Positions 4,485 to 21,691 of a stretch of 21,691 bases of DNA are shown here, piece after piece. The position numbers and the translations under genes are program-made. This stretch comes from Jaapia argillacea MUCL 33604 (taxonomy: Eukaryota > Basidiomycota > Agaricomycetes > Jaapiales > Jaapiaceae). Location of the stretch: the NCBI GenBank assembly GCA_000697665.1, contig KL197742.1:241606-263296 (forward strand), read 5' to 3'. Position 1 is the stretch's first letter, and each line of letters begins with the position of its first letter. The notes below the pieces were generated by a model. It was not told where the DNA came from. It was given only the letters and a program-made list of their open reading frames with translations, and ran no database searches.

Positions 4485-6890
4485 TGGATGAGAGACTGGA
4501 GGGAGAGGAAGGGTTGATGTTTGTGAGAAGGTTAGGGATGGGTTTGGCAGGGGGATTACAGGGTGCGGTTGCCTTGGCTGAGAGGAGTTGTATTGCACAC
4601 TTGTTCGGAATGGTTCGTCGCTGTCCTCTCTCCTTCCGTCCTACCACCCTCACACTTTCTGCCCCCCATCTGTTAGGAAGAGAACAGGCATGGTAATCTC
4701 CATTGGCACTCAAACTGAATTCGGCGCCAAATTCTCTATGCCCTCCAAACAGGAAGAAAAATGTATGCTGTTACAGTTGAGTTGGCAAAGAAGCTGAAGG
4801 TTTTGAATTTTGGGATTATTAGGGTTATTTGTGTTGTGTGGTTTGGCAGACGAGGAGAGCATCAGGGAAGTTTGCTATCATTGTGAGTTTCTCCTTTCCT
4901 TTCCTTCCCCCTTCTCCTTTCCTCCTCTACCCCCCTCCCTCCCCCTTTTCCATTACTTTCATATAATGGGTCAACAATATGCTCACCATTCTTTCTCTTG
5001 CGTGGGCACAGTATCACTGGCAGTAGCAGCTATACCTGAAGGTTTACTGATAGTAAGAACTGTTACTTTGGCGCTTGGAGAGTTGAAGATGTGAGGAGGA
5101 AAGTGATTGTGAGGAAGTTGCATTCGGCTGAGGCGTCGGGGAGTGTTTCAGCTGTTTGTTTGGATAAGACTGGTATGTGCTTTTTCTTCTGTTTTGGGTG
5201 TGAGGTAGGTGGGAGGTGCACGGATGTGGATCTTTGTCGCGCACACACCATCCAGTTTCAGCCATATACCATCTGCTTTTGAACATATACTCCCTTCCTT
5301 TATGCATACACCCACCTCTCATACTTTCCTGCCATTTCCTGCCTTCGCCTCAATGCTGACATGCGTTACCTAGGCACATAAACAAATTGCCACAGGCAAG
5401 ACGATCCCTATCGACCCTTCCTCCCCCACGCCACCATCCAAGCACATCTCAGGAGTGACAACCAAGACACTGAAATTGGGTGTCATAACATGCGAGTGAG
5501 TACAGATGTGGTTGGGGTTTATCATGGATGTGGCCTTGTTGAATTTTTTGTGTTTTTGGAAGAGGGATTATAGGAAGGTGCGTTTCTCGTTTTTGCTATT
5601 GTTGTCCCAGAGAAGATGCTGAAGTGTGGGGGTTGGACAGGGCTTCACTCAGCTTTCGAAACGGCCTTTCAGTCTGAAACTATGTTTATGGCTGTTAGCG
5701 GTTTTCATGGTTTTCAGCCTGGTGATCCTCAAGTCAATGGGACGGCGCACAAGGAGATGTATTACACCAAGGGTTCATTGATGCTATCATCTCTCGATGA
5801 AAGTTTTACTACGTCTCAGACGATTTGACAACTTTACTTGATGCCAATACTCGGAATGTCGCTCTCAACAAAGCTCAGGCCACCGCTGCTAAAGGTCTAC
5901 AGGTTATTGCTATGGTTCACAGACATGGATCTGTCGATCCCATTTAGTTTCGGATCTCTCTTCAGTGGCGCCTTCGACTTCTTCGAAATCGATCCATTCG
6001 TTGAGGGTGGGCATACCTGATTCGGACCATTTGGTGTTTCTTGGGTTTCAGACCGTGTTGGACCCACCTAGGAAAGGAGTGGCGGATGTCATTGGGTTGT
6101 TATAAAGTGGTGGGGTATAGGTTGTGATGATTACTGGGGATGCTGAGGAGAGTGCTTTGGGTGCTGGGAGAGAACTCGGGTTGCTGGTTGGTAGGGGTGG
6201 TGGGTCTAGGCAGTCGAGGGGTGAGAGTTTGGCTTTGGCTGGGGGTTTGGAGCGTTTGGGTATGGGGAATGGGAGAGGGAAGGGTCGTGTTGGGTCATCG
6301 AGTCAGGCGGGAGGAACATATTGTTTCACTGGGGCTATGATTGATAGGATGACAAAAGCACAGTTGAGGGAGGTGGTGTGGTGTTAGCATTTTCGCCAGG
6401 ACCAAGCTGGGGCATAGGGGATTGTGAAGGCTCTTCAGTCGAGAGGGACGGTTGTTGCTATGACTGGCAATGGTGGTATGTCTCTTTCCTCTTTTTACTA
6501 TGGTGATTGTGTGGACCTCATGGATGGAGCCCCGCAGTTGTTTGACCCATCACTTGGAGGGTTGACTATGCTTCTGTATGAAACTCAATGTGGTCATTGG
6601 AGTGATGGGATGGGCCCTCCTGCAATGCCAAGGCCCTCGAGAGTCACTAATCCACCCCCGTCTGACCGTCGCGGAGCGTTACCACTCCATATGAGGAGTC
6701 AACCCTCTGTATGTCCCAATGAACCCATCGCACCTCCCCATCTCAATATCAATCCCAATGTCCTGTCATTCGTCCAATCTCTGGATTGGACCATGGTGAT
6801 CTTGATGCTGGCTCATGAGTGGGAAAGGGTTGGGGTTTATCTTGGTGTTAGGTGGCTGAGCGAAGGAAGATGTTTGGTGCGATGAGCTGC
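4485..6890 (+). pseudogene. Decayed P-type Ca2+/Mn2+-ATPase, PMR1/SPCA type
   Basis: Scattered blocks in several frames follow the order of Golgi/secretory-pathway Ca2+-ATPases. They are: ERSCIA and TGMVISIGTQTEFGAKFSM (4575-4745; actuator region); VSLAVAAIPEG then TVTLALGELKM (4998-5094; the M4 calcium-site PEGL segment); KVIVRKL, GSVSAVCLDKTG (about 5098-5172; the phosphorylation loop DKTG); VSGFHGFQP and YYTKGSL (about 5690-5780; nucleotide-binding domain, KGA-like); LDPPRKGVADVIG (about 6056); VVMITGDAEESALGAGRELG (about 6120); RGTVVAMTGNGG (about 6445; normally MTGDGVND). Frameshifts and stops separate the blocks, and probable introns with GT and AG borders remain (for example after DKTG at about 5172). 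It is therefore a decayed copy of a genomic gene rather than a retrocopy. The Asp to Asn/Gly changes in the hinge motif would abolish activity. The ends are approximate; the 5' part before 4485 and the C-terminal membrane helices are not recognisable. Confidence 0.85.
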
Positions 6891-9554: not shown

Positions 9555-9567
9555 CATCAGGAAAAAA

Positions 9568-9594
9568 GGTTTGGAGCGAGAAGCAGTCCAGACC
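9568..9594. repeat. Terminal hairpin of Plavaka copy A
   Basis: GGTTTGGA and TCCAGACC form an imperfect 8 bp stem around a short loop; the same structure is at 11000-11026 in copy B. The loop contains AGAAGC, which could alternatively pair with GCTTCT just downstream (9595-9600). Hairpins close to transposon ends are often transposase binding or processing sites; that role is inferred. Confidence 0.6.
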
Positions 9595-9825
9595 GCTTCT
9601 ATAGATAGATCCTTCTAAATTAGGCAAAATTTCACCTTTCCCAGAATCTAGAGCATTCTGGATTTCTCAAAATTTTGGAAAAGAACTCTAAAGACAAGTT
9701 TTTTTGAGACGTCTTGAAACACATCACTATAAGCGCCATTGACAGGAAGGCACTTCTGTTCCTCAGATTATAGAGAACTCCAGACTACTACAGATTGAAC
9801 CCAGTAATTCTATAGTGTCCATAGT

Positions 9826-10434
9826 TCACCAGATGCATTGATATGAGTATAAGGAAGTCCAATTATTGACAAAGAAGGAACTGCAAAGGTCAAGAACATT
9901 GTTTGTGTCCCAGGACGCCTCTGGTGTATCCTTCAGAGTCTTAGGAAACTTGGGAACCAATTGACAGCTCTGACAAATATCTGCAACCTTCACTACCTCA
10001 CCAGGAGGAGAACCATCAGATCACAAGGCAGGTTTACTCACATCATACATCATGTGGTTTGGATCCGCAACCCATTTTAGCTTGCTGTACCACTGGATGT
10101 AAGCCAAGGGCTCAGCTGGCCATTCTTTTGGAGTGGTGACATGGTCGTGGCAAGATTCATCCCAAACCTTTGAAGGAAGTTTGAAAATGCAGTGCACCCT
10201 CCCCACTCTTGTACCTAACAAGAATTTAGTGGGAGTTATAAGGATGTATTCAGAAGGACAATGATCTTACCTTGCAAACCAGTAGATTCTGCTTCATCAT
10301 CAACAATCAGGATTGCAGTATCGTAACGTGCAGGTTTTTTCTTGATTGTAGGGTGAGCCTTGATAATACCCCTCTCTTCCTTCTGGTCATGAAGCTCTGG
10401 AGGTGAGAATTTGACGTTGTGATAAATGTCAAGA
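9826..10434 (-). pseudogene. Plavaka transposase C-terminal fragment (copy A)
   Basis: The reading frame matches the C-terminus of the copy B transposase. A 56 bp intron is conserved at 10215-10270. The last exon starts TRVGRV and carries KLPSKVWDESCHDHV and, further on, LVPKFP and NNVLDLCSSFFVN, ending at 9826. An in-frame TGA at 10021-10023 stands where copy B has CGA (Arg), so the fragment is dead by a CpG transition as well as by truncation. Upstream of the intron, the frame runs into the N gap at 10435. Confidence 0.8.
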
Positions 10435-10986: not shown

Positions 10987-10999
10987 CATCAGGAAAAAA

Positions 11000-11026
11000 G
11001 GTTTGGAGCAAGAAGCAGTCCAGACC
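11000..11026. repeat. Terminal hairpin of Plavaka copy B
   Basis: Same stem as in copy A (GGTTTGGA / TCCAGACC). One loop CpG present in A (GCGAG) is CA here (GCAAG). Confidence 0.6.
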
Positions 11027-11257
11027 GCTTCTATAGATAGATCCTTCTAAATTAGGCAAAATTTCACCTTTCCCAGAATCTAGAGCGTTCTGGATTTCTC
11101 AAAATTCTGGAAAAGAACTCTAAAGACAAGTTTTTTTGAGACGTCTGGAAAAACATCACTATAAGCGCCATTGACAGGAAGGCGCTTCTGTTCCTCAGAT
11201 TATAGAGAACTCCAGACTACTACAGATTGAACCCAGTAATTCTATAGCGTCCATAGT

Positions 11258-14200
11258 TCACCAGATGGATTGATATGAGTATAAAGAAGTCCAATTATTG
11301 ACAAAGAAGGAACTGCAAAGGTCAAGAACATTGTTTGTGTTCCAGGACGCCTCTGGTGTATCCTTCAAAGTCTTAGGAAACTTGGGAACCAATTGACAGC
11401 TCTGACGAATATCTGCAACCTTCACTACCTCACCAGGAGGAGAACCGTCAGATCGCAAGGCAGGTTTACTCACATCATACATCATGTGGTTTGGATCCGC
11501 GACAAGTTTTAGCTTGCTGTACCACTGGACGTAAGCCAAGGGCTCAGCTGGCCATTCTTTTGGAGCAGTGACATGGTCGTGGCAGGATTCGTCCCAAACC
11601 TTTGAAGGAAGTTTGAAAATGCAGCGCACCCTCCCCACTCTTGTACCTAACAAGAATTTAGTGGGAGTTATAAGGATGTATTCAGAAGGAAGATGATCTT
11701 ACCTTGCAAACCAGTAGATTCTGCTTCGTCGTCAACAATCAGGATTGCAGTATCGTAACGTGCAGGTTTTTTCTTGATTGTAGGGTGAGCCTTGATAATA
11801 TCCCTCTCTTCCTTCTGGTCGTGAAGCTCTGGAGGTGAGAATTTGACGTTGTGATAAACATCAAGATGTTCGAAAGGAAGCGTATAGCGGGTGGGAGAGA
11901 TTGCAGAGAGAGTCGCTAGGTATTTTGTCAGGTCTCGTCTAAGGCCGGGAGCTGAGTGGTCTCGCTCAATCTTGTCCAACAGGCAATTGGGAGAGTGTGG
12001 GCGCTTGGTCAATTTGATTGGTGAACCTTCTTTATTGCGCAAGATTGGGAGGTTTGAAGAGTTGGCCTGACGAGAGCACAATCTTTCCATCCAGGATATA
12101 TATCCATCAAAGGATGAGACTTTCTCCTGGCGAGCGACCCATTTGACCATTTGGGGACATTTGTCCTTGTGGTTTGTTGAACGCCAGGCGTCCTTGGTGA
12201 GGTCGATGTGGAGGCACTCAAACATTTTGGTGTTGTAGTTATCGGTCATACCAAAGTTTCTTATCACCGTGATGTAGTGGAGAAGAGAGTGAAATTTTGG
12301 TATATTGAAGTCCTTTCATATGCCCAGGGTGATGAAGATTTGGCGGTGGGTGTGGAAGGTATTGAGAGCGTCTCTCATGTAACCGAGGGTGGTGTCGTCA
12401 TGAGTGGGATTCTGAGCTTGATAGATGAAGTCCAAGAGAGCACGGCAGGCGATAATGCCTGACTGGGGCACCTTGCCGACCAAGCATGCAAGTAATACTC
12501 TTGCCATATCCTTCCTCTCCGAACCTGAGATCTGCGACAGTGCAGAGATACCGTTCTTGAAGTGACGAGTACCATAGGTGGGTGGAAGGCGTTGTAACCT
12601 CTCATCCAGTTCTGGAGCTCCCATGGCGTTCTGGCACCAAGTGACCAAGTGCTTAAAGACTCCTTGGTAGAGTTGGTGAAGGACATCTGGCGTTAGGGAT
12701 TGGTGAATGTCGGTAAATGGAAAGCCCTCCCAGAAAGGTTTATGAATGCAGCCAGAGACGTCTTTCTCCATACATAGCTTGGAGAACTCAGTTCTACTGG
12801 TAGTGGTTTGTTGAGTGGTATGAATTGTCCCCAATGTAGTCTCGGGGGTCTGTGCAACTCCAGGGGTGGCGTTCTGTAGGTCCTTATGTGGGTGATCACA
12901 TTTGGGGCATGTTCCGCTCTTGGTGCAGCTGACGAGACACTGCTCGGGGTAGTTGGCAATGTATGAGGTGAGAACAGGATGGACCATCCTGACCTTTCCA
13001 TCCCCACACACCATCTCCACCCCTTTCACACTTGCCTCTCTTAGCGGCTCCAGGATCGTTCTCATTGACTCATGAAACAATCTCTGCATCTTCGCCTTCT
13101 TCTCTGCCTTGGATAGATGAGAAGTGTTTATCTTGTCTGAAGAAAGATAGCTGAGGAGGACAGTGCTGTTTTCAGAGGGTCTGCGTTGGATGGATTTAGG
13201 TAGATTTCCAATAGTAAGGTATACTGGGTAGGCACTTTTGGATCCCGAGAATTGGGTAAGTTGAGTTTTGTTGGTGGAAACGATGATGGGCGCTAAGGTT
13301 GCTCCTTTGGGTAGCACAGTCTACAGGTCATAAGTGAGCTGCTATGTTCCTAGAAATGGAGAGAGAAGAATGTTTAAGTACTCACTTGAACTGCATTCCA
13401 CCACTTCCCTGTCCACATCTCACTATATATCCTGTTATCCATGCTCCTGTCGCTATACACCCTCAATGGCACAAATCTCATTTCTTTGGCATGGGCAGGG
13501 TTGGCGAAAAGGCTTCGGATTAAGGTGACCATGTCTCAGTACTGTATAAGATGCTTGTCATCTGGGTTGTCCCATAGAATGATGGTGCGCTCCAGCCATG
13601 GAGCTCGATCGGGTATGGAATCAACAATTTTCTCTATTCCTCGTACATCTCTGTAGGATAGGCCAAGTCTCTCCTTAACCTGAGGAGGGCAGTCAGAAAA
13701 CAGGCCAGAAGATAGTTGTAATGACTCACACCAGGGATAGCTAATAGACGATCAAAAGATCCTTTACCAGGAGACTCCTGGATTGCCCACTTCGCCACTC
13801 TCCAATCTAACTCTGAAGCAAAAGGAATGAATGGATTGTCCCCTTCTCCCCCATCCATTGACACATCTCCATCTCCTCCCTTACACCAACTCCTCCAAAC
13901 CTCCTCCTCCATCTCTCATGGAGCGTCCCCTCCATCCTTATCACAGTCCCAGCATTTGGACACTCCACAATAAACCTATCATCATCTTTATCCTCCCCAA
14001 ATCTCCCTTGAGAAGGACCTGCCTGCATCTCTTCGTCCTCCCCATCCCCATCCCCATGTCTATCACCGTCCTGTTCATCTCCATCATCACCAGGATCCCC
14101 AATCCCACCTTCATCCATTCTTTGCCATTCCATCTCCAAACTATTCATCGTATTATCCTCCTCCTCCTCAAAAGCCCTGTTCTTCCCCTTACAATACCAA

Positions 14201-14313
14201 GCACATTTCTTAGCTTGGGACAAGTGGGAGTGCATACCTCCAATGGTGCGAAAAACTGTATCACATGCGGGACATGTCCGAGATTGTTCTTGATTAAGTA
14301 CTGGATGTTGCAT
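11258..14313 (-). pseudogene. Plavaka-family transposase, nearly full length, disabled
   Basis: Four exons fit: 14313-13730, 13679-13386, 13320-11703 and 11646-11258. The introns are 50, 65 and 56 bp with GTGAGT, GTGAGT and GTAAGA donors; the total is about 960 residues. The N-terminus has a CCHC-like zinc finger (CPACDTVFRTIGGMHSHL then KKC), then an acidic linker. The core follows the Plavaka pattern: PFASELDWRVAKWA, IPG, NRIYSEMWTGKWW, GATLAPIIVSTNKTQLTQF, AYPVYLTIGNLPKSI, CTKSGTCPKCD, FWEGFPFTDIHQSLTPDVLH then QLYQGVFKHL, GMTDNYNT, LHIDLTKDAWR(S)TNHKD, and a C-terminal NVLDLCSSFFVN. The CPKC and LH...KH elements resemble the C/D(2)H motif of CACTA transposases (inference). Defects: a frameshift in the Gly-rich stretch at about 13870-13905, TGA at 13536-13538 and TGA at 12316-12318, both where CGA (Arg) is expected. 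Sequencing error could explain the frameshift but hardly both TGA codons. Confidence 0.88.
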
Positions 14314-14345
14314 CTTTGCATATTCTCAAGGTCAGATGTGAAGTT

Positions 14346-14875
14346 CGAATGTGTGTCTAGTGGAGGGCTTGTTGGAGATCAGAATAATAAGCTAGATAGT
14401 CAGTTACAACAGAGCAGAGGTAAAAATCTAAGTCTCGGCAAGTGGGAAAGTTGGGTTCAAAGTAGAGCAAGAGACCCAAAGCAAACCCAGTAGCAAAAGA
14501 TGGCCTAGTAGGAGGATCAGGGACAAAGGTCAAAGGTCAAAGGCCCAAAGAGTCTGAGATTGCCTCAGTTCCACAGTAACAGAAATGCACGGTCTACTTT
14601 TCCATTCGGTAGCGGCATGGGAGCGAGGGCCGTGCATTCCAATTATTTGCCACCTTCCTAAGTTCCACTTGCCTTGAGAACACCTTGACCTCGACGTGTT
14701 CCTGCCCTGCAGAGTGCACACCTTTCATTTATCTCAGCACTCATTTACCAACAGACTCGATCCTCGATCCTGCTCCTTCTGGCCACACTCCCACAGAGCA
14801 AATTATCCCTTCGTGTGCTCCAGGTCGTCTTTGCTCTTGGCTCAGCAAGTACTGCAGTGCACAAATGCTCCTGCT
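14346..14875. other. Unassigned spacer upstream of the Plavaka transposase
   Basis: No gene is recognisable. A short direct repeat (ACAAAGGTCAAAGGTCAAAGG) lies at 14522-14542. The right end of Plavaka copy B should fall in or near this stretch, but no inverted match to its left terminus was found. Confidence 0.4.
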
Positions 14876-15415
14876 TCTGCATTGGTATTTTGTGTGCACA
14901 GGAACTCACTCCCTAGGTAAGCAAAAATGTCACTTCTCGGTGTAGTCTCCAGCTCATCTGTAATCTTCATTTTGGATAGATCCCCTCGCAACTCCTCAAC
15001 CAACGGCAGCTAGGCGTTCATTCACCCCTTGCAAGTCCCGTTCCCCACTCCCTCGACGTTCAACACTTACACTATCCAATTCCGCATCCACAACCTCCTT
15101 GACGATGCAACAACTAGGTGTTCATTCACCCTCTCCATATCCACAACCTCCTCGACGACACAGCAACTAGGTGTCCATTCACCTCTCAAGCCCCATTCCC
15201 CACACGTTGACGTTGGACGCCGTGGGACCCTTGCGCTGTCAACGTCCGCAAACTGCAGAGAACGAACGCACTCGCTGCATTGGTATTTTGGGTGTATGGG
15301 AACTCACTCCCGAGGTAAGCAATAATATCACTTCTTGGTGTAGTCTTCATCTCACCATTGTAATTAGATCTCTCCCCTTGCAACTCCTTGACGAACAGTG
15401 GCTAGGCGTTCATTT
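14876..15415. repeat. 398 bp direct repeat pair at the head of the minisatellite
   Basis: The block that starts GCATTGGTATTTTG at 14879 recurs at 15277. Both copies continue with GGAACTCACTCCC, AGGTAAGCAA, a TCACTTCT..GGTGTAGTCT stretch and then CTAGGCGTTCATT, the minisatellite motif. So a larger, higher-order unit was duplicated, with shorter units amplified between and after the copies. Confidence 0.8.
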
Positions 15416-16270
15416 GCCTGCCCCTCACAAGTCCCATTCCCAACTCCCTCAACGTTCGGCGCTTGCGCTGTTCACTTCCGTGTCCACAACCCCCTTGACG
15501 ATGCAACAGCAAGGCATTCATTCGCCTGCCCCTCGCAAGTCCCATTCCCCACTCCCTCGACACTCGACACTTGCGCTTGTGCATCCACAACCTCCTCGAC
15601 AACGCAACAACAAGACATTCATTCGCCTACCCCTCACAAGTCCCATACCCCACTCCCTCAACATTCGATGCTTGTGCTGTCAATATCCACATCCACAACC
15701 TCCTCGACAACACAACAACAAGGTGTTCATTGGCTGGTCCCTTGCATGCAAGTCCCATTCCCTGCTCCCTCGACGTTCAGTGCTTGCGCTGTCAACATCC
15801 GTATCCACAACCTCCTCGACGACGCAGCACGACGTTCGACATTCGCACTGTCAAAGTCCTCCTCGACAACACAACCACAAGGTGTTCATTCGCCTGCCCC
15901 TTGCAAGTCCCATTCCCCACTCCCTCGACGTTCGACGCTTGCACTTGCGCATCCACAACCTCCTCGACAATGCAACAACAAGGCATTCATTCGCCTGCTC
16001 CCTTGCAAGTCCCATTCCCCGCTCCCTCGACGTTTGGTGCTTGCACCGTCAAATTCCGTATCCACAACCTCCTCGACAATGCAACAACAAGGCGTTCATT
16101 CACCGGTCCCTCACATGCAAGTCCCATTCCCTGCTCCCTCGACGTTCGGTGCTTGCGCTGTCAACATCCGTATCCACAACCTCCTCGACGATGCAGCAAC
16201 TAGGTGTCTGTTCGCCTCTCAAGTCCTATTCCCTACTCCCTACTCCTTGACGTTTGACACTTGCATTGTC
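15010..16270. repeat. Minisatellite, 102-112 bp unit, about ten copies
   Basis: The segment CAAGTCCCATTCCCC-ACTCCCTCGACGTTCG recurs with its CAAG at 15428, 15536, 15637, 15749, 15904, 16006, 16118 and 16220, with earlier diverged copies at about 15032 and 15187. Steps are 101-112 bp, except one of 155 bp that includes a partial extra unit. Each unit also holds ATCCACAACCTCCTCGAC, GCAACAACAAGG and GCGTTCATTCGCC. Long plus-strand ORFs (about 350 codons in two frames) cross it, but they are a product of the repeat having few stops. The array ends about 235 bp upstream of the dioxygenase start codon, so it may affect that promoter. Confidence 0.93.
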
Positions 16271-16505
16271 AACGTCCATCTCTTTTCTTTGCCAATGCCA
16301 GGACATTCGGCATTTGGTTCCTCACCAGGACATCCAACGTTCGCTTCCTCATTCGGTTCCCAATCGTTGTGTTTGCCATTCATAACATCTATCTGGGGCT
16401 TCTCCTCACCGACGCCAGGAGTTCAATGTTCCCTTCATCAACTCTAAGTTCAACCTTCTTGGTCGCCACACACTACACTTTCCCTCCCTCACCATCAACT
16501 ACTCC

Positions 16506-19353
16506 ATGGCGCTTCCAAACCCATCACCAACCCCGAGACATGGTTGCAATTTCACTCCTGAGGAATTGCAAAGATTGTTGAGAGTTGTTCAAGGGTTGTA
16601 TCATTTGGAGGGAGCTCCTAACCCCTCTGAAGTATTACCTCTTTTGAAGAAGCTTTCAGAGGCTGCTTCTGAGGATGTCTCCTCTCCTCAAGGTGAGGGA
16701 AATCTCACTTAAGCTGAAACACCTTTACTGACATCTAATTGCTACTAGGAGACCCTCAACAACTTTGGAGGCTTTCCAACCCACCCAACAACACCCACGC
16801 CCACTCATCTTCCCTGGTCCACAGATCTGCTGGAGTCAACCCATGTTACGAACCTTATGCACCTTACGACTGAGGACCTCCGGCTCGTATACAAGGTGGG
16901 GACCCACCCACAGAGCTTAGAAAGAAGTGTAAGAGGGGGGCTCAGCAACAGGTGCCAGCAGTGTGGGAGGCAGTGAATTCCCATATGGTGTTGTCGGAGC
17001 CTGCTGGAAGTTTTATCAGGAATGTTGCAGGGCTTTGCTGTTCAGTGGGAGGAAAGGATGGATGGATGGATGGGGTGATTCACACTGTTGATGGGGCGTC
17101 TTATTTGAGGGAAGCCAATGAAGGAAGCAATGTTTCTGACATTGTCGGCCTTTGTGTAGATATGGAGAGGGGGTTGTGGGATGCTACCATGAGGAGTGTG
17201 TTGGCTTACATTCGTTTGAAAGCGGCTGTTCAGAGGTTAGTTTTTTACCTGAGGAATGTTTAAATTATACTTAATGTTTGATGTCTTCCTTTCCTAGTAT
17301 TCTAGAGGAAGGTGCTGGTTGTCGGACCATGGGTCACTTTCCCTGTAGGACAAGCCAGGATGTTTACGACAATCATACCCAAGAAGACTCTGCTCGCCCA
17401 ACTTATCATGTTTTTAGCAAGTGGGTGAGGTGTGGCGCAAGTTATGCTTGTATATCAGGAGGAGGTAATTTCATTCCAACAGTTCCTGCTTCTTATATTA
17501 ACTTTTAGGCAGGGATGCTCTGTATCCTATTCATTATAGTTTGCTTCAATATAAAGTATCAGTTTGAGTCGCTTAGCAGGGATACCATGTATCAGCTGGC
17601 AAATGCATTGAGGGATCCAGATAAAGGTATGATCTTCTACTTCTGTTTAGCTCTCATTACTAACTGCTGTCTTTGGAGAAGCTCAACCTATGGGACAATT
17701 GATTGTGAATTGTATTATACCAATCATCAACATCCTCATCAAGTCCATCCCATTCAACATCCAAGCCACTCTCTTTTCCATTATTCCCCAGGACATGTTC
17801 GAGACACCTAGCATTCCCGCCTATTGTTTTTCCACATCTGACTCAATCTTTGATCTATTCAGTTACAGGTCAGTCTCATCTCCTTATCTCAGTTTCTTGA
17901 TGCTAACTATAGTCTAGGAACTTTCAGCTTAAGCCTCGTAGTTGCCTGTGGCCTCGCCTACCGCACTATCCATTAATACGGTCTCCTATTTGGCCAGCCT
18001 CCTCTGAATCAACTTTCTTTCTACCAAATGACATTCCACCCCTTCAACCACATTGTCATCCTTCTACTCTTGCAGAGCAGCTGGCAGAGGAAAGAAAGGA
18101 AAGGATTGAGACCATGAGAGTTACTACTATTCAAATTGACTTTGATCCAAAGTTGGAGGTCAACTCCACCTGTCCAGTTCCTAAAGACTCTTCAGATGCC
18201 TACTCCTGGACTGAGGGTGAAAGGTGTCTAGCAGAGATGGCTTATGAACCTATGAGTATTGAAGATCTTGAATTATGGGTGAGTCATCAATGATTTTTCT
18301 GTATTAGTCGTCTTGCATTCTGATTGAGGGTCTTGGCTCAGTTTAAAACCCATTTTGCTGGAGGAAGAAAGCTCACTGATGGTTATGTCGTCATTTCTGA
18401 GGAGATGTTTCCAAAGTATGTATCTCTTCTTGGCGTCCTTCCCCTCAAAATCTTAAAAGGTCCTTGAGTAGCCAGGTGGTGCAAATCCTGGATAAATATG
18501 GTGATACCCTACTTCTTGTGTGTACTGGAACTCCAGAAGGGATATGCTCCAACATGGACGCCAACATGTCCTGTGCCTTTGGAGATCGAGACCCCCTCAC
18601 CCATATGGACACATCTCTGCTAGGTATCAACCATAGATATGTCAGCTTTCACTGTTCAAACTACAATCATCATAGCACTCAAGTGAGTGGTTTTTTCCCC
18701 CTTATAAAACCTTGAAGACTTACTTTCTCTGTAGGGTCATGAAGCGCCTCCCACCCTCCACCCTTTGCAAGCCAAGAAGGTTAATGTCAAGCACACAAAC
18801 TATACTCAGATGGTTCCCAGACTATCTGTTGAAACTCATCAATATTCGGTCATCTATCGGAATGTCTGTAATGTCTTAGCAGACCTATTCCGTTGGGAGG
18901 AAGCTCTGGTAAGTCTGTCTTTGACTCTATCTTGGTCTTGGTATTCAATTACTACCCTACTAGATACAACGATTCTTTCCGAAAGATTTCAAAACCCTAT
19001 CTGAATACTGTGAGCTGCTACCATTGGACGACATGTCCCCTGTCTATCCCATGTCCTCGCTAGTGTTGAACCTTGATGTTGCCACCAACGGTCACAGAGA
19101 TAGCAAGGACATTGGGGTTTGTGTTGTTGTGGCTTGGGCACCTCACAAAAGAGGGGAGCTGTGTGTCAAGGAGATTGGTGTGGTGATTAGAACACGCCCT
19201 GTTGCCAGTGTTATTTTCTGCTCTGATTTCCTCACTCATTTCAACTTGCATTTTGAAGGAAAGAGGGGCTCTGTAGTCCTGCATGCAGATGGAGCGTTTG
19301 AGCAGTGGAAGAGAGATAGGAATGGCTGGCAGGACAATCAATTCATGACTTAG
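16506..19353 (+). CDS. TET/JBP-type 2-oxoglutarate/Fe(II) dioxygenase
   Basis: Predicted DNA-modifying dioxygenase of the fungal TET/JBP family, which oxidises 5-methylcytosine in nucleic acid. A ten-exon model keeps all phases. Introns: 16693-16748, 17236-17297, 17465-17512, 17627-17678, 17869-17917, 18279-18341, 18416-18459, 18683-18734 and 18909-18963. It gives 788 codons. The C-terminal exon carries the core: NGHRDSKD (19087 onward; His 703 and Asp 705, the HxD iron ligands; human TETs also read HRD), then THFNLHF (His 751, distal iron ligand) and GKRGSVVLHAD (Arg 760, 2-oxoglutarate contact). Assignment of these ligands is by family pattern. Upstream blocks such as IVGLCVDMERGLWDATMRSV, RDTMYQLANALRDPDK and IPAYCFSTSDSIFDLF look well conserved. 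One defect is seen: an in-frame TGA at 16871-16873 (codon 104) where CGA fits. A 51 bp GT-AG stretch (16851-16901) with a weak donor could splice it out in frame. The third intron could instead end at 17508, but that choice breaks the frame. In basidiomycetes these genes are expanded and often linked to transposons. Confidence 0.82.
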
Positions 19354-19469
19354 ATTAGAGTTGAAGTTTTATGTCGTTACACTTTTCAGCTTAGTTTCTT
19401 TAGTAATGCCAGAATTTAGAAAGGGAATACGGATTGCTTCTTCGCCTCACCTCTCCTGCATGTTCCACC

Positions 19470-19554
19470 CTATATTATTTTGAAGTGTCTTTCCTCTTTG
19501 CTCAGGCCTCTCTTCCACCCTCTTTTCGTTTTACTTCCCTCTCTCTATTCTTTA
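19470..19554 (+). promoter_or_regulatory. Probable core promoter and CT-rich leader
   Basis: CTATATTATTTT at 19470-19481 is TATA-like and lies about 80 bp before the ATG at 19555. It is followed by a strongly CT-rich stretch, the usual leader of basidiomycete genes. The upstream dioxygenase gene ends at 19353, so the next gene has its own promoter. Confidence 0.45.
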
Positions 19555-21630
19555 ATGTCTACTCGAAAGAAAGCCCCTAGTTCTGCTAAGTCAAAGAGCG
19601 CTGCTGGTCCCAAAAAAGCCACACGTTCTTCTGGTAAAGTGCCATCTCCTCCTCCATCTCCTCCCAAGGCACCACGTCCAAAGCCCAGGCCTCGAAACAA
19701 AACAGTTCAAGATGATGTTGAATCCTCTGCTGCCTCTCCAGCACCTTCTTCAAAGAGCAGAGCTAAGTCCTCTACCCCTGCTACATCGTCTAGGTCCACA
19801 ACTCCTGGTCACTCTCATACTTTGAGTAGAGAGGATCTCGCTTTGTTTTTGGAGCTCAAGAAGAGGAAGGAAGAGACTGACGCTCAAACTCTACTTGGTA
19901 GCTATCTACTTTTCTGCTTAGTGTCTTTACCATGAGCTGAATGTTTCCATTTTAGCCATTCAAAAGTGTAGTGCTGCCATTGTCGAGGAGGAGGAGGGGG
20001 AGAGTCATCAATCCGACCAGCCTCCACCCAAGTGTCTCAGGTCTGGTTCATCAGCACCACCTCTTGTTGACCTTGATGAGGAAGAGGAGGGTTTGGTGCG
20101 CTCCTTTAAACCTGCTGGTGGTATGTCAAGGATGTATTATGCTTCTTGTTTTTATTCGTTTAACTGTGACTCTAGCTGCTCCTGGCCCTGATCCTCAAGA
20201 AGAAGAGCATGAAGCTTCATTCACAAACAGCCCTGCAGCTGCTGCTCCTTCTCAAGCTTCTGGAGGTGAAGAGGAGGAAGAGGAGGAAGCTGAGGAAGAA
20301 GCTGAGGCGAAGTTGAAGGGTAATGTTGTCGACTTTGATGATGATGTGAGTATCTTTGTTTTCATCTGACCAACACCAGCTCTGATACTGATGTCTACAA
20401 TCTCATGTAGTTCTACTCTAGGTCAGATGGTGAGGAGGATAAGAAGAGGAAGAAGAAGAAGGATGTGAAGGAGCAGAGGGGTAGAAAGTCCAATAAGGGA
20501 GCGACTGACGTTGGTGGAGGCAAGAGGCCCACAGTGACAAAGAGTGACTTTGAAGGCGCCTCTCTTTGACTTGCTTGCCTAGGTCACACTCACTTCCGCA
20601 TCTTCATCTCCACTGAGGACGCCTTTCCAGATGTGGAGACTAATAGAGATACAGTCTGCGAGGAGGCATTGTCCAGAGTGGCTGCCACCAGTCCAGGACT
20701 ACAAGCAGAGTGGGATAAGGTGAGGAAAGATGAGGTGTTGAAGGAGACCATGATTCTTTATGTACATCCTTTCTTTCACCTTTAAATCTTTCTATGCTGA
20801 TGACAACAAGGTTTGGAAGGGTGCTGCTCAGATGAGGGGGGAGGTGAAGAGCAAGACCGATGAGCTCATGGATAAGTATAACATTCCTGGGTTGATTGGA
20901 GAAGGGGGCATCAAGGCCAGAGTGAAGTGGCTGCTGGGAGAAGGGAAGTGTCATTTCGCCTTTGGAGAAATTACTTTTGATGATGTGTGTGTTTCTCTTT
21001 CTTATTCTCATTGCATCTACTAACCACCAGTCCAGGCGGGTGGAGGGGCTGTGAACACCCTACTACCCTTGAGCCATGATGCCATCCTGACCACCCTACG
21101 CAAGCAATGGTTCAATACCGTCAAAAGTGAAGGTTTCAGGTACATCAAGAAGTTCAAAACCCTTCCTATTCCCCTTCTGGCTTTGATCTTGACTTGCATA
21201 TGCTCTTTCCTTTGTCTTCTCACCCACTCACTAAGTTGACTTTTTTTGGCGACACCTTATCAGCTGGAAGCGTCTTTGAAACAGTGGGAAGGAGGCAAAT
21301 TGGTGAAGGAGAACTTTTCTGACATCAAGTGGAGGAAGAAGTAAGTGTTCTCATTCTTTCCACTGGTGTAGCTAACCAACCCATATCCTGATAGATATTA
21401 TGGCCACATTGGTTACATTACCGCTCTTCAAGACCATGTTCCAACTTGGATCGCCAGCTACCAGGAGAAAGTCATTCGTCAAGTTTGGTAAGGTGTATCT
21501 GTAAAAACTAATCGTCCACCTCTGTTATTCTAACTGTTCTCTTCCTTGCCCATCCAGTTCTATTGCTGGGGTGGACATTGATGACATGGAAGAAGAGGTT
21601 GACCTCATCAGGAAAAAAGGTTTGGAGTGA
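19555..21630 (+). CDS. Basidiomycete gene, possibly DUF6532-like, interrupted at 3' end
   Basis: A ten-exon model keeps all phases: 19555-19897, 19956-20120, 20176-20345, 20411-20543, 20583-20761, 20811-20984, 21036-21197, 21264-21340, 21395-21487 and 21558-21630 (522 residues). The first 110 residues are Ser/Pro/Lys-rich and probably disordered. Glu-rich and Lys-rich tracts follow (about 165-250). The C-terminal half is globular: DTVCEEALSRVAA, WKGAAQMRGEVKSKTDELMD, KWLLGEGKCHFAFGEITFDD, LPIPLLALILTC and KYYGHIGYITAL. This pattern reminds me of DUF6532, a domain of unknown function common in Agaricomycetes, but that is a memory-based guess. Oddities: intron 21198-21263 starts AT where GT is needed, intron 20544-20582 is only 39 bp, and the last codons (from 21606) come from a Plavaka terminus, ending at TGA 21628-21630. 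It may be expressed with altered tail, or be a recent pseudogene. Confidence 0.65.
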
Positions 21631-21691
21631 TTCTCGCTCCAGACCACTTCTATAGTTAGATTGTTCTAAATTACGTGAATTACGAACTTCT
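21606..21691. mobile_element. Left terminus of a third Plavaka copy (C), running off the window
   Basis: CATCAGGAAAAAAGGTTTGG at 21606 is identical to the start of copies A and B and has the same orientation. Similarity continues through CCAGACC..CTTCTATAG..TAGAT..TTCTAAATTA to about 21672 and then stops, so C belongs to a related but different subfamily or to a non-autonomous derivative. Confidence 0.8.
21619..21645. repeat. Terminal hairpin of Plavaka copy C, loop inverted
   Basis: GGTTTGGAG and CTCCAGACC form a 9 bp stem with one G-T mismatch. The 9 nt loop TGATTCTCG is, apart from one base, the reverse complement of the copy A loop CGAGAAGCA. Confidence 0.6.

Follow-up and report, generated by a model that had tools for sequence, protein, structure and literature searches.

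The window analysed here is a stretch of 21,691 nt (C34:241606-263296 of the 43.7-Mb genome of Jaapia argillacea, with N on either border). It contains a diverged TET/JBP-like gene that is probably the cargo of a PlavakaB transposon, where its product would have oxidised the element's own DNA against silencing with a DUF6532 protein as helper. The observed basis is the gene order, the termini and target duplication (TSD) of complete copies, five loci with both the TET-like and the DUF6532 gene, the sign of purifying selection on the gene, residues of the metal and 2-oxoglutarate type in two copies (the window and contig C22), and a methyl-CpG-type decay of the element. On the other side, none of the copies compared is undamaged, the Tet_JBP scores are below the curated cut-off, the hhalign probabilities are 32-54%, Asp337 is not kept and CpG is low in TET+ copies. 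The features of the locus are as follows.

9555..10434, plus strand: left end of a separate Plavaka copy, with 95.7% identity to the left end on C22, broken off at a 94-base N gap
10987..21605, no strand assigned: PlavakaB element, from its left terminus to the interrupting Plavaka, in an order homologous to the C22 element
10987..11008, plus strand: left terminal sequence CATCAGGAAAAAAGGTTTGGAG, identical to the left terminus on C22
11258..14325, minus strand: Plavaka transposase gene, with zinc-finger-like start, PF18759 and downstream DUF6830
14446..16479, no strand assigned: non-coding spacer between the divergent genes, with tandem repeats of periods 53, 107-112 and 267
16506..19353, plus strand: TET/JBP-like gene of ten exons, from the splice model and exon conservation
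16506-16692, 16749-17235, 17298-17464, 17513-17626 and 17682-17868, plus strand: exons 1-5 of the TET-like gene, splice model
17918-18278, 18342-18415, 18472-18682, 18735-18908 and 18964-19353, plus strand: exons 6-10 of the TET-like gene, splice model
16871..16873, plus strand: TGA in frame at codon 104, within exon 2, splice model
18964..19353, plus strand: catalytic exon 10, with HRD at 19093-19101, the distal His at 19237-19239 and the Arg at 19264-19266
19555..21605, plus strand: gene encoding DUF6532 (PF20149), running in the direction of the TET gene, from Pfam and alignment with C22, cut at 21606
21606..21691, plus strand: left end of one more Plavaka copy, which interrupts the DUF6532 gene and continues into N

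The transposase gene of the window matched PF18759 at 12634-13314 and 13386-13655 (E 1e-83), as expected from the Plavaka assignment in the initial annotation, and it contains an in-frame TGA at 12316-12318. The right terminus of the element is absent from the window. A complete PlavakaB was found on C22 (392254-403851, 11,598 bp). Its ends are CATCA...TGATG, its TSD is TA, and its termini are CATCAGGAAAAAAGGTTTGGAG and the inverted copy with one mismatch. The transposase gene (minus strand) is followed there by the TET-like gene (plus) and the DUF6532 gene (plus), which is also the order in the window. The window element is 94%, 88% and 85% identical to the C22 element in three alignable parts; the window spacer was unalignable with the C22 spacer by blastn, and the latter has other repeats. 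A second bounded element, on C49 (175873-198970, 23.1 kb, TSD GC), has the gene order of C22. The hallmarks of PlavakaB are 5'-CATCA..TGATG-3' termini and a 2- or 3-bp TSD (PMC12730594, section 3.2.2). Such termini with TSD surround the TET-like gene on C22 and C49, and the window has the left terminus only. The complete C22 copy indicates that the gene lies inside PlavakaB and not merely between Plavaka copies, and the bounded, TSD-flanked copies show an HxD TET-like gene as Plavaka cargo.

The ten-exon model of the TET-like gene was derived by alignment with the paralogue on C22. All nine introns are GT..AG and 48-63 nt long. With the exons as queries (exon 2 as two queries), 11/11 were matched on C22, 9/11 on C36 and 10/11 on C49, whose remaining exon 1 was identified in a further search. 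Each exon was recognised in at least two of these three paralogous loci, with an identity of about 33-62% outside C22. The gene is real, and a fifth locus of the family, on C64, is a fragment. The window gene had been described as having an intact catalytic core and nine introns that can be placed without breaking the frame. The introns can indeed be placed, but the TGA at 16871-16873 in exon 2 interrupts the frame and contradicts an intact gene. This TGA can be avoided solely by an extra intron, for which a 51-nt stretch (GT..AAG, 16845-16895) is the most natural candidate. Since C22 and C49 are open without an extra intron across the matching stretch, the TGA is more likely a real stop than spliced out.

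Damage was found in all four TET-like copies compared. Besides the TGA in the window, exon 2 of the C22 copy carries a 1-nt frameshift and its exon 9 a stop, exons 2 and 3 of the C49 copy contain stops and its catalytic Asp is lost, and the C36 copy has lost the Arg. The element in the window is probably a decayed TET-carrying copy. Between the window and C22, dS was 0.65, dN 0.12 and dN/dS 0.18 over 705 codons (Nei-Gojobori method, stop codons excluded; dS was saturated against C36 and against C49), indicating that the TET-like protein was under purifying selection.

The HRD, the distal His and the Arg are present in exon 10 in the order and spacing of TET/JBP proteins, as had been read from the sequence before. 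The codons of His and Asp of the HRD are located at 19093-19095 and 19099-19101. In the present exon model these residues are His698, Asp700, His746 and Arg755; the earlier numbers 703, 705, 751 and 760 denote the same four residues, shifted by 5. The distance from His to His is 48 and from His to Arg 9, compared with 50 and 9 for H326, H376 and R385 of CcTET. The HxD, the distal His and the Arg are all present in the window and C22, while C36 is without the Arg and C49 without the Asp, so that HRD is found in three of the four copies and HRG in C49.

An association of Plavaka with TET has been implied earlier in five fungi, and complete TET+ Plavaka families are described for just one of them, Agaricus bisporus, and for Gymnopus confluens (PMC12730594). 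The TET+ PlavakaB elements of these two species (Kojima 2025, PMC12730594) share with the present family the PlavakaB transposase with an internal TET/JBP-like gene, the termini CATCA..TGATG and the 2- or 3-bp target duplications. The present gene might belong to the PE type, the TET type of those elements, or be a sister of it, in either case with HxD. Such kinship is possible but doubtful: the shared PlavakaB residence and CATCA..TGATG ends (PMC12730594, section 3.2.2) speak for it, whereas the hallmark of the PE type is HxE (PMC12730594, section 3.4) and here HRD is found in 3/4 and HRG in 1/4 copies, in a comparison with the published description of PE. As the Plavaka enzymes of Agaricales belong to the PE type and have HxE (PMC12730594) and those of the J. 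argillacea PlavakaB family have HxD, the HxD TET family paired with DUF6532 is a predicted new variant of TET+ PlavakaB, set apart from PE by the described HxE.

In the profile search against PF12851 (Tet_JBP), the window gave 15 bits (E 0.015) for exon 10 alone and 19.5 bits (E 6e-4) for exons 8-10, against a curated Pfam cut-off of 34.9 bits. Exons 8-10 of C36 reached 33.3 bits (E 3.6e-8), the best paralogue yet still below 34.9, and those of C22 reached 17.2 bits; a Tet_JBP match was absent for exons 8-10 of C49 in the Pfam search. The curated cut-off was thus reached by none of the window, C22, C36 and C49. Exon 10 alone matched PF12851 in 4/4 copies (best E 7.1e-7), and Tet_JBP was the sole Pfam family at E < 0.1 in any of the four. 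The HMM search proposed with the TET/JBP assignment therefore gave a Tet_JBP match, but one below the cut-off. The profile of the four copies scored 31.1 against CcTET plus ten TET rows of the genome, and the best of 100 column shuffles scored 22.9, so its likeness to TET exceeds chance. The hhalign probability of this profile was 32% with CcTET and ten TET rows and 54% with six rows. In the profile alignment the HRD falls on H326/D328 of CcTET, and H376 and R385 are matched by the distal His and the Arg. We conclude that the product of the window gene is a putative, distant TET/JBP-like 2OG/Fe(II) oxygenase. The assignment as a TET/JBP gene holds for a distant relative with an above-chance profile match and does not extend to the curated Pfam score (15-19.5 versus 34.9 bits).

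The subthreshold Pfam score and the weak profile probability would also suit some other 2OG/Fe(II) oxygenase, without action on DNA. The single-sequence AlphaFold model of the window protein had a mean pLDDT of 48.5, too poor for fold reading. TET was not found in the PDB sequence search with the window exon or the family profile; for the exon, a de novo protein came out best (E 0.45), and the only match of the 679-residue splice product was 7onh_A, named SAKe6BE-L3 (E 0.002). The search of IMG/VR gave 49 pattern matches and no relatives among them. An oxygenase of another kind is nevertheless improbable, because Tet_JBP is the only Pfam family at E < 0.1 in the four copies and a location inside a transposon suits a DNA-directed role.

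AG-type TETs (Kyakuja/Zisupton, CcTET, PDB 7vpn and 8jkk) share HxD...H...R with the PlavakaB family at near-equal spacing, with an alignable core. An AG-type TET could have been captured from the KDZ (Kyakuja) elements of this genome and moved into Plavaka, and KDZ-linked TETs are abundant here, as 19 of the 25 listed PF12851 matches have a KDZ match at most 12 kb away. We regard such a transfer as very improbable. In the tree the four PlavakaB copies grouped together with 100/100 support, on a branch of 3.31 changes per column and separate from CcTET and the KDZ-linked rows. The tree had 16 rows, namely 15 of 17 extracted rows plus CcTET, with two short fragments omitted, and sequence was available from 14 of the 25 PF12851 places. 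At the position of CcTET Asp337, reported as essential for 5mC activity (PMC12730594, section 3.4), all four copies have Cys in a MAFFT alignment that is gapped just before this column. The PlavakaB TET family also differs from the AG type in being without a KDZ transposase: none of its five loci (C36 being one of the 25 matches) is within 12 kb of a listed KDZ match. Two sequences of a further TET/JBP type, C4:1411550-1411960 and C3:1089810-1090217, are related and paired in the tree; they are distant from every KDZ or Plavaka match listed.

No KDZ match was found within the 21,691-nt window or between the element termini on C22 and C49, and a KDZ origin of the locus was rejected. The initial annotation, which had seen no KDZ transposase in the window, proposed either a different capture event or a KDZ element lying outside. 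The nearest listed KDZ match on the contig is 41 kb away. Of the two proposals it is the first that is borne out, by the complete C22 copy, which places the gene within a PlavakaB element. That a host or free-standing TET/JBP gene had Plavaka copies inserted around it by chance, as the three left ends in this Plavaka-rich window and the family members on C36 and C64 without Plavaka among the matches listed might suggest, is hardly credible, since it is already contradicted by the two bounded copies on C22 and C49, which lie between matched termini with target duplications and share order and orientation despite about 50% divergence in exon 10.

The second gene of the element was identified from its joined C-terminal exons, which matched PF20149 over positions 4-191 of 194 (E 1e-31, 110.8 bits, cut-off 24). 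The N-terminal part of its protein is rich in Lys/Ser/Pro and in Glu. An in-frame TGA is located at 20567-20569 in the window, where C22, C36 and C49 have sense codons. The DUF6532 core exon adjoins the TET-like gene in all five family loci found (window, C22, C49, C36 and C64). The core exon had a sixth match on C23, within 5 kb of sequence that includes a Plavaka end and in which a TET exon was not found. Genome-wide, 12 of the 16 listed DUF6532 loci are within 10 kb of a Plavaka transposase (p 2.6e-16, against 56 listed Plavaka places), and 10 of these 12 are divergent from it. The loci outside the 12 are C24:12179, C36, C64 and C49, the last sharing a bounded element with its transposase. 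The genome searches score best candidates only, and the genome-wide counts are therefore lower bounds. These data point to DUF6532, a domain of unknown function, as the product of the second gene that Plavaka elements usually carry in this genome.

A complete TET- Plavaka element with two genes, transposase and DUF6532, was found on C63 (6,575 bp, TSD CA). The end search gave no assignment of element ends at the DUF6532 loci on C20 and C6. The presence of DUF6532 in 5/5 TET loci and the 12/16 DUF6532 loci near Plavaka argue that the TET gene was added to a two-gene Plavaka, and it probably joined this pre-existing element between its genes; TET may instead have been lost from a three-gene ancestor. 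In the open-access literature searched, no report of a Plavaka-DUF6532 link was found. A term search of the main text of PMC12730594 gave no mention of DUF6532, and PMC8955403, in the part covered, names both members of the pair as extra domains without linking them.

The reading of the TET-like gene as PlavakaB cargo would work as follows. In an element type whose transposase and DUF6532 genes are transcribed divergently, one lineage would carry a diverged TET/JBP-type 2OG/Fe(II) dioxygenase gene between the two, oriented as DUF6532. The substrate of the enzyme would have been 5-methylcytosine or some other modified base in the DNA of the element itself, and its oxidation would have countered host silencing of the element. 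DUF6532 may help the transposase or target the enzyme. The TET-like cargo and its partner gene suggest a built-in anti-silencing tool, and their proteins can be tested jointly as the transposon's answer to DNA methylation. A more far-reaching version appears unlikely. It would make the pair a two-protein anti-silencing module of PlavakaB and an enzymatic counterpart of VANC, in which the diverged HxD TET would be the fourth TET type on transposons, after PU, AG and PE, and DUF6532 would bring the TET or the transposase to the element. VANC is not known to be a TET-type oxygenase. VANC of the Arabidopsis VANDAL elements is described as an element-encoded factor that removes the element's methylation (PMC5735166), and the likeness is a works-like analogy only. 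VANDAL elements also have non-coding tandem repeats that vary between relatives (PMC5735166), like the PlavakaB spacer. A similar layout is described for IS3EU of rust fungi, in which the TET is flanked by the transposase and an oppositely oriented second gene, as here; IS3EU differs in belonging to another transposon superfamily and in having an alpha-kinase for DUF6532 and a PU-type TET (PMC12730594, section 4.1).

Substitutions between the window and C22 were counted in the transposase 3' part, with 109 transitions and 17 transversions. Transitions were found at 52/155 CpG bases and 57/922 other C/G bases (p 3.6e-19). The excess had the same sign in 6/6 comparisons, which share sequences, and was weakest in the TET part (p 0.028). 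It is the trace expected from deamination of 5mC, and PF00145 matches at three or more loci of the genome suggest DNA methyltransferases in the host. The CpG observed/expected ratio was 0.28, 0.40 and 0.43 in the TET+ copies of C22, C49 and the window, against 0.92 in the TET- copy of C63, copy age being uncontrolled. With TET+ copies lower than the TET- copy, a lasting protective effect of TET was not seen, and TET as a shield against CpG decay is unsupported. The window spacer had a ratio of 0.79 and the genes 0.27-0.45. A CpG-rich spacer as protected target was considered and dropped, as the C22 spacer had a ratio of 0.42.

The TET part (16480-18956) was 70-85% identical to C22 in 250-column steps. 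It is more diverged than both of its flanks (94% in the transposase 3' part and 87-98% from 19207 on), which suggests that element copies recombined, giving a mosaic.

A scan for bacterial-type promoters and terminators and an Rfam search gave nothing useful, and a search for 5.8S was negative. Pieces at 4807-6885 resemble a broken P-type ATPase, with DKTG and TGD motifs which we take to be P-type ATPase-like; one piece matched PF00122 below the cut-off (E 2.8e-4), and four other pieces had no Pfam match. A 44-base tandem repeat array of about 16 copies occupies positions 1-708 of the window. On C22, a repeat of about 685 bp breaks the transposase at about 394482-395165; its flanking matches overlap by 8 bases, suggesting an 8-bp target duplication. 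Similar sequence is present in loci L026 and L030 and, more diverged, in L029 and L039. At C36:320554-322588, a stretch of about 2 kb has CATCAGGAAAAA-type inverted ends with CA on either side and is perhaps a non-autonomous Plavaka.
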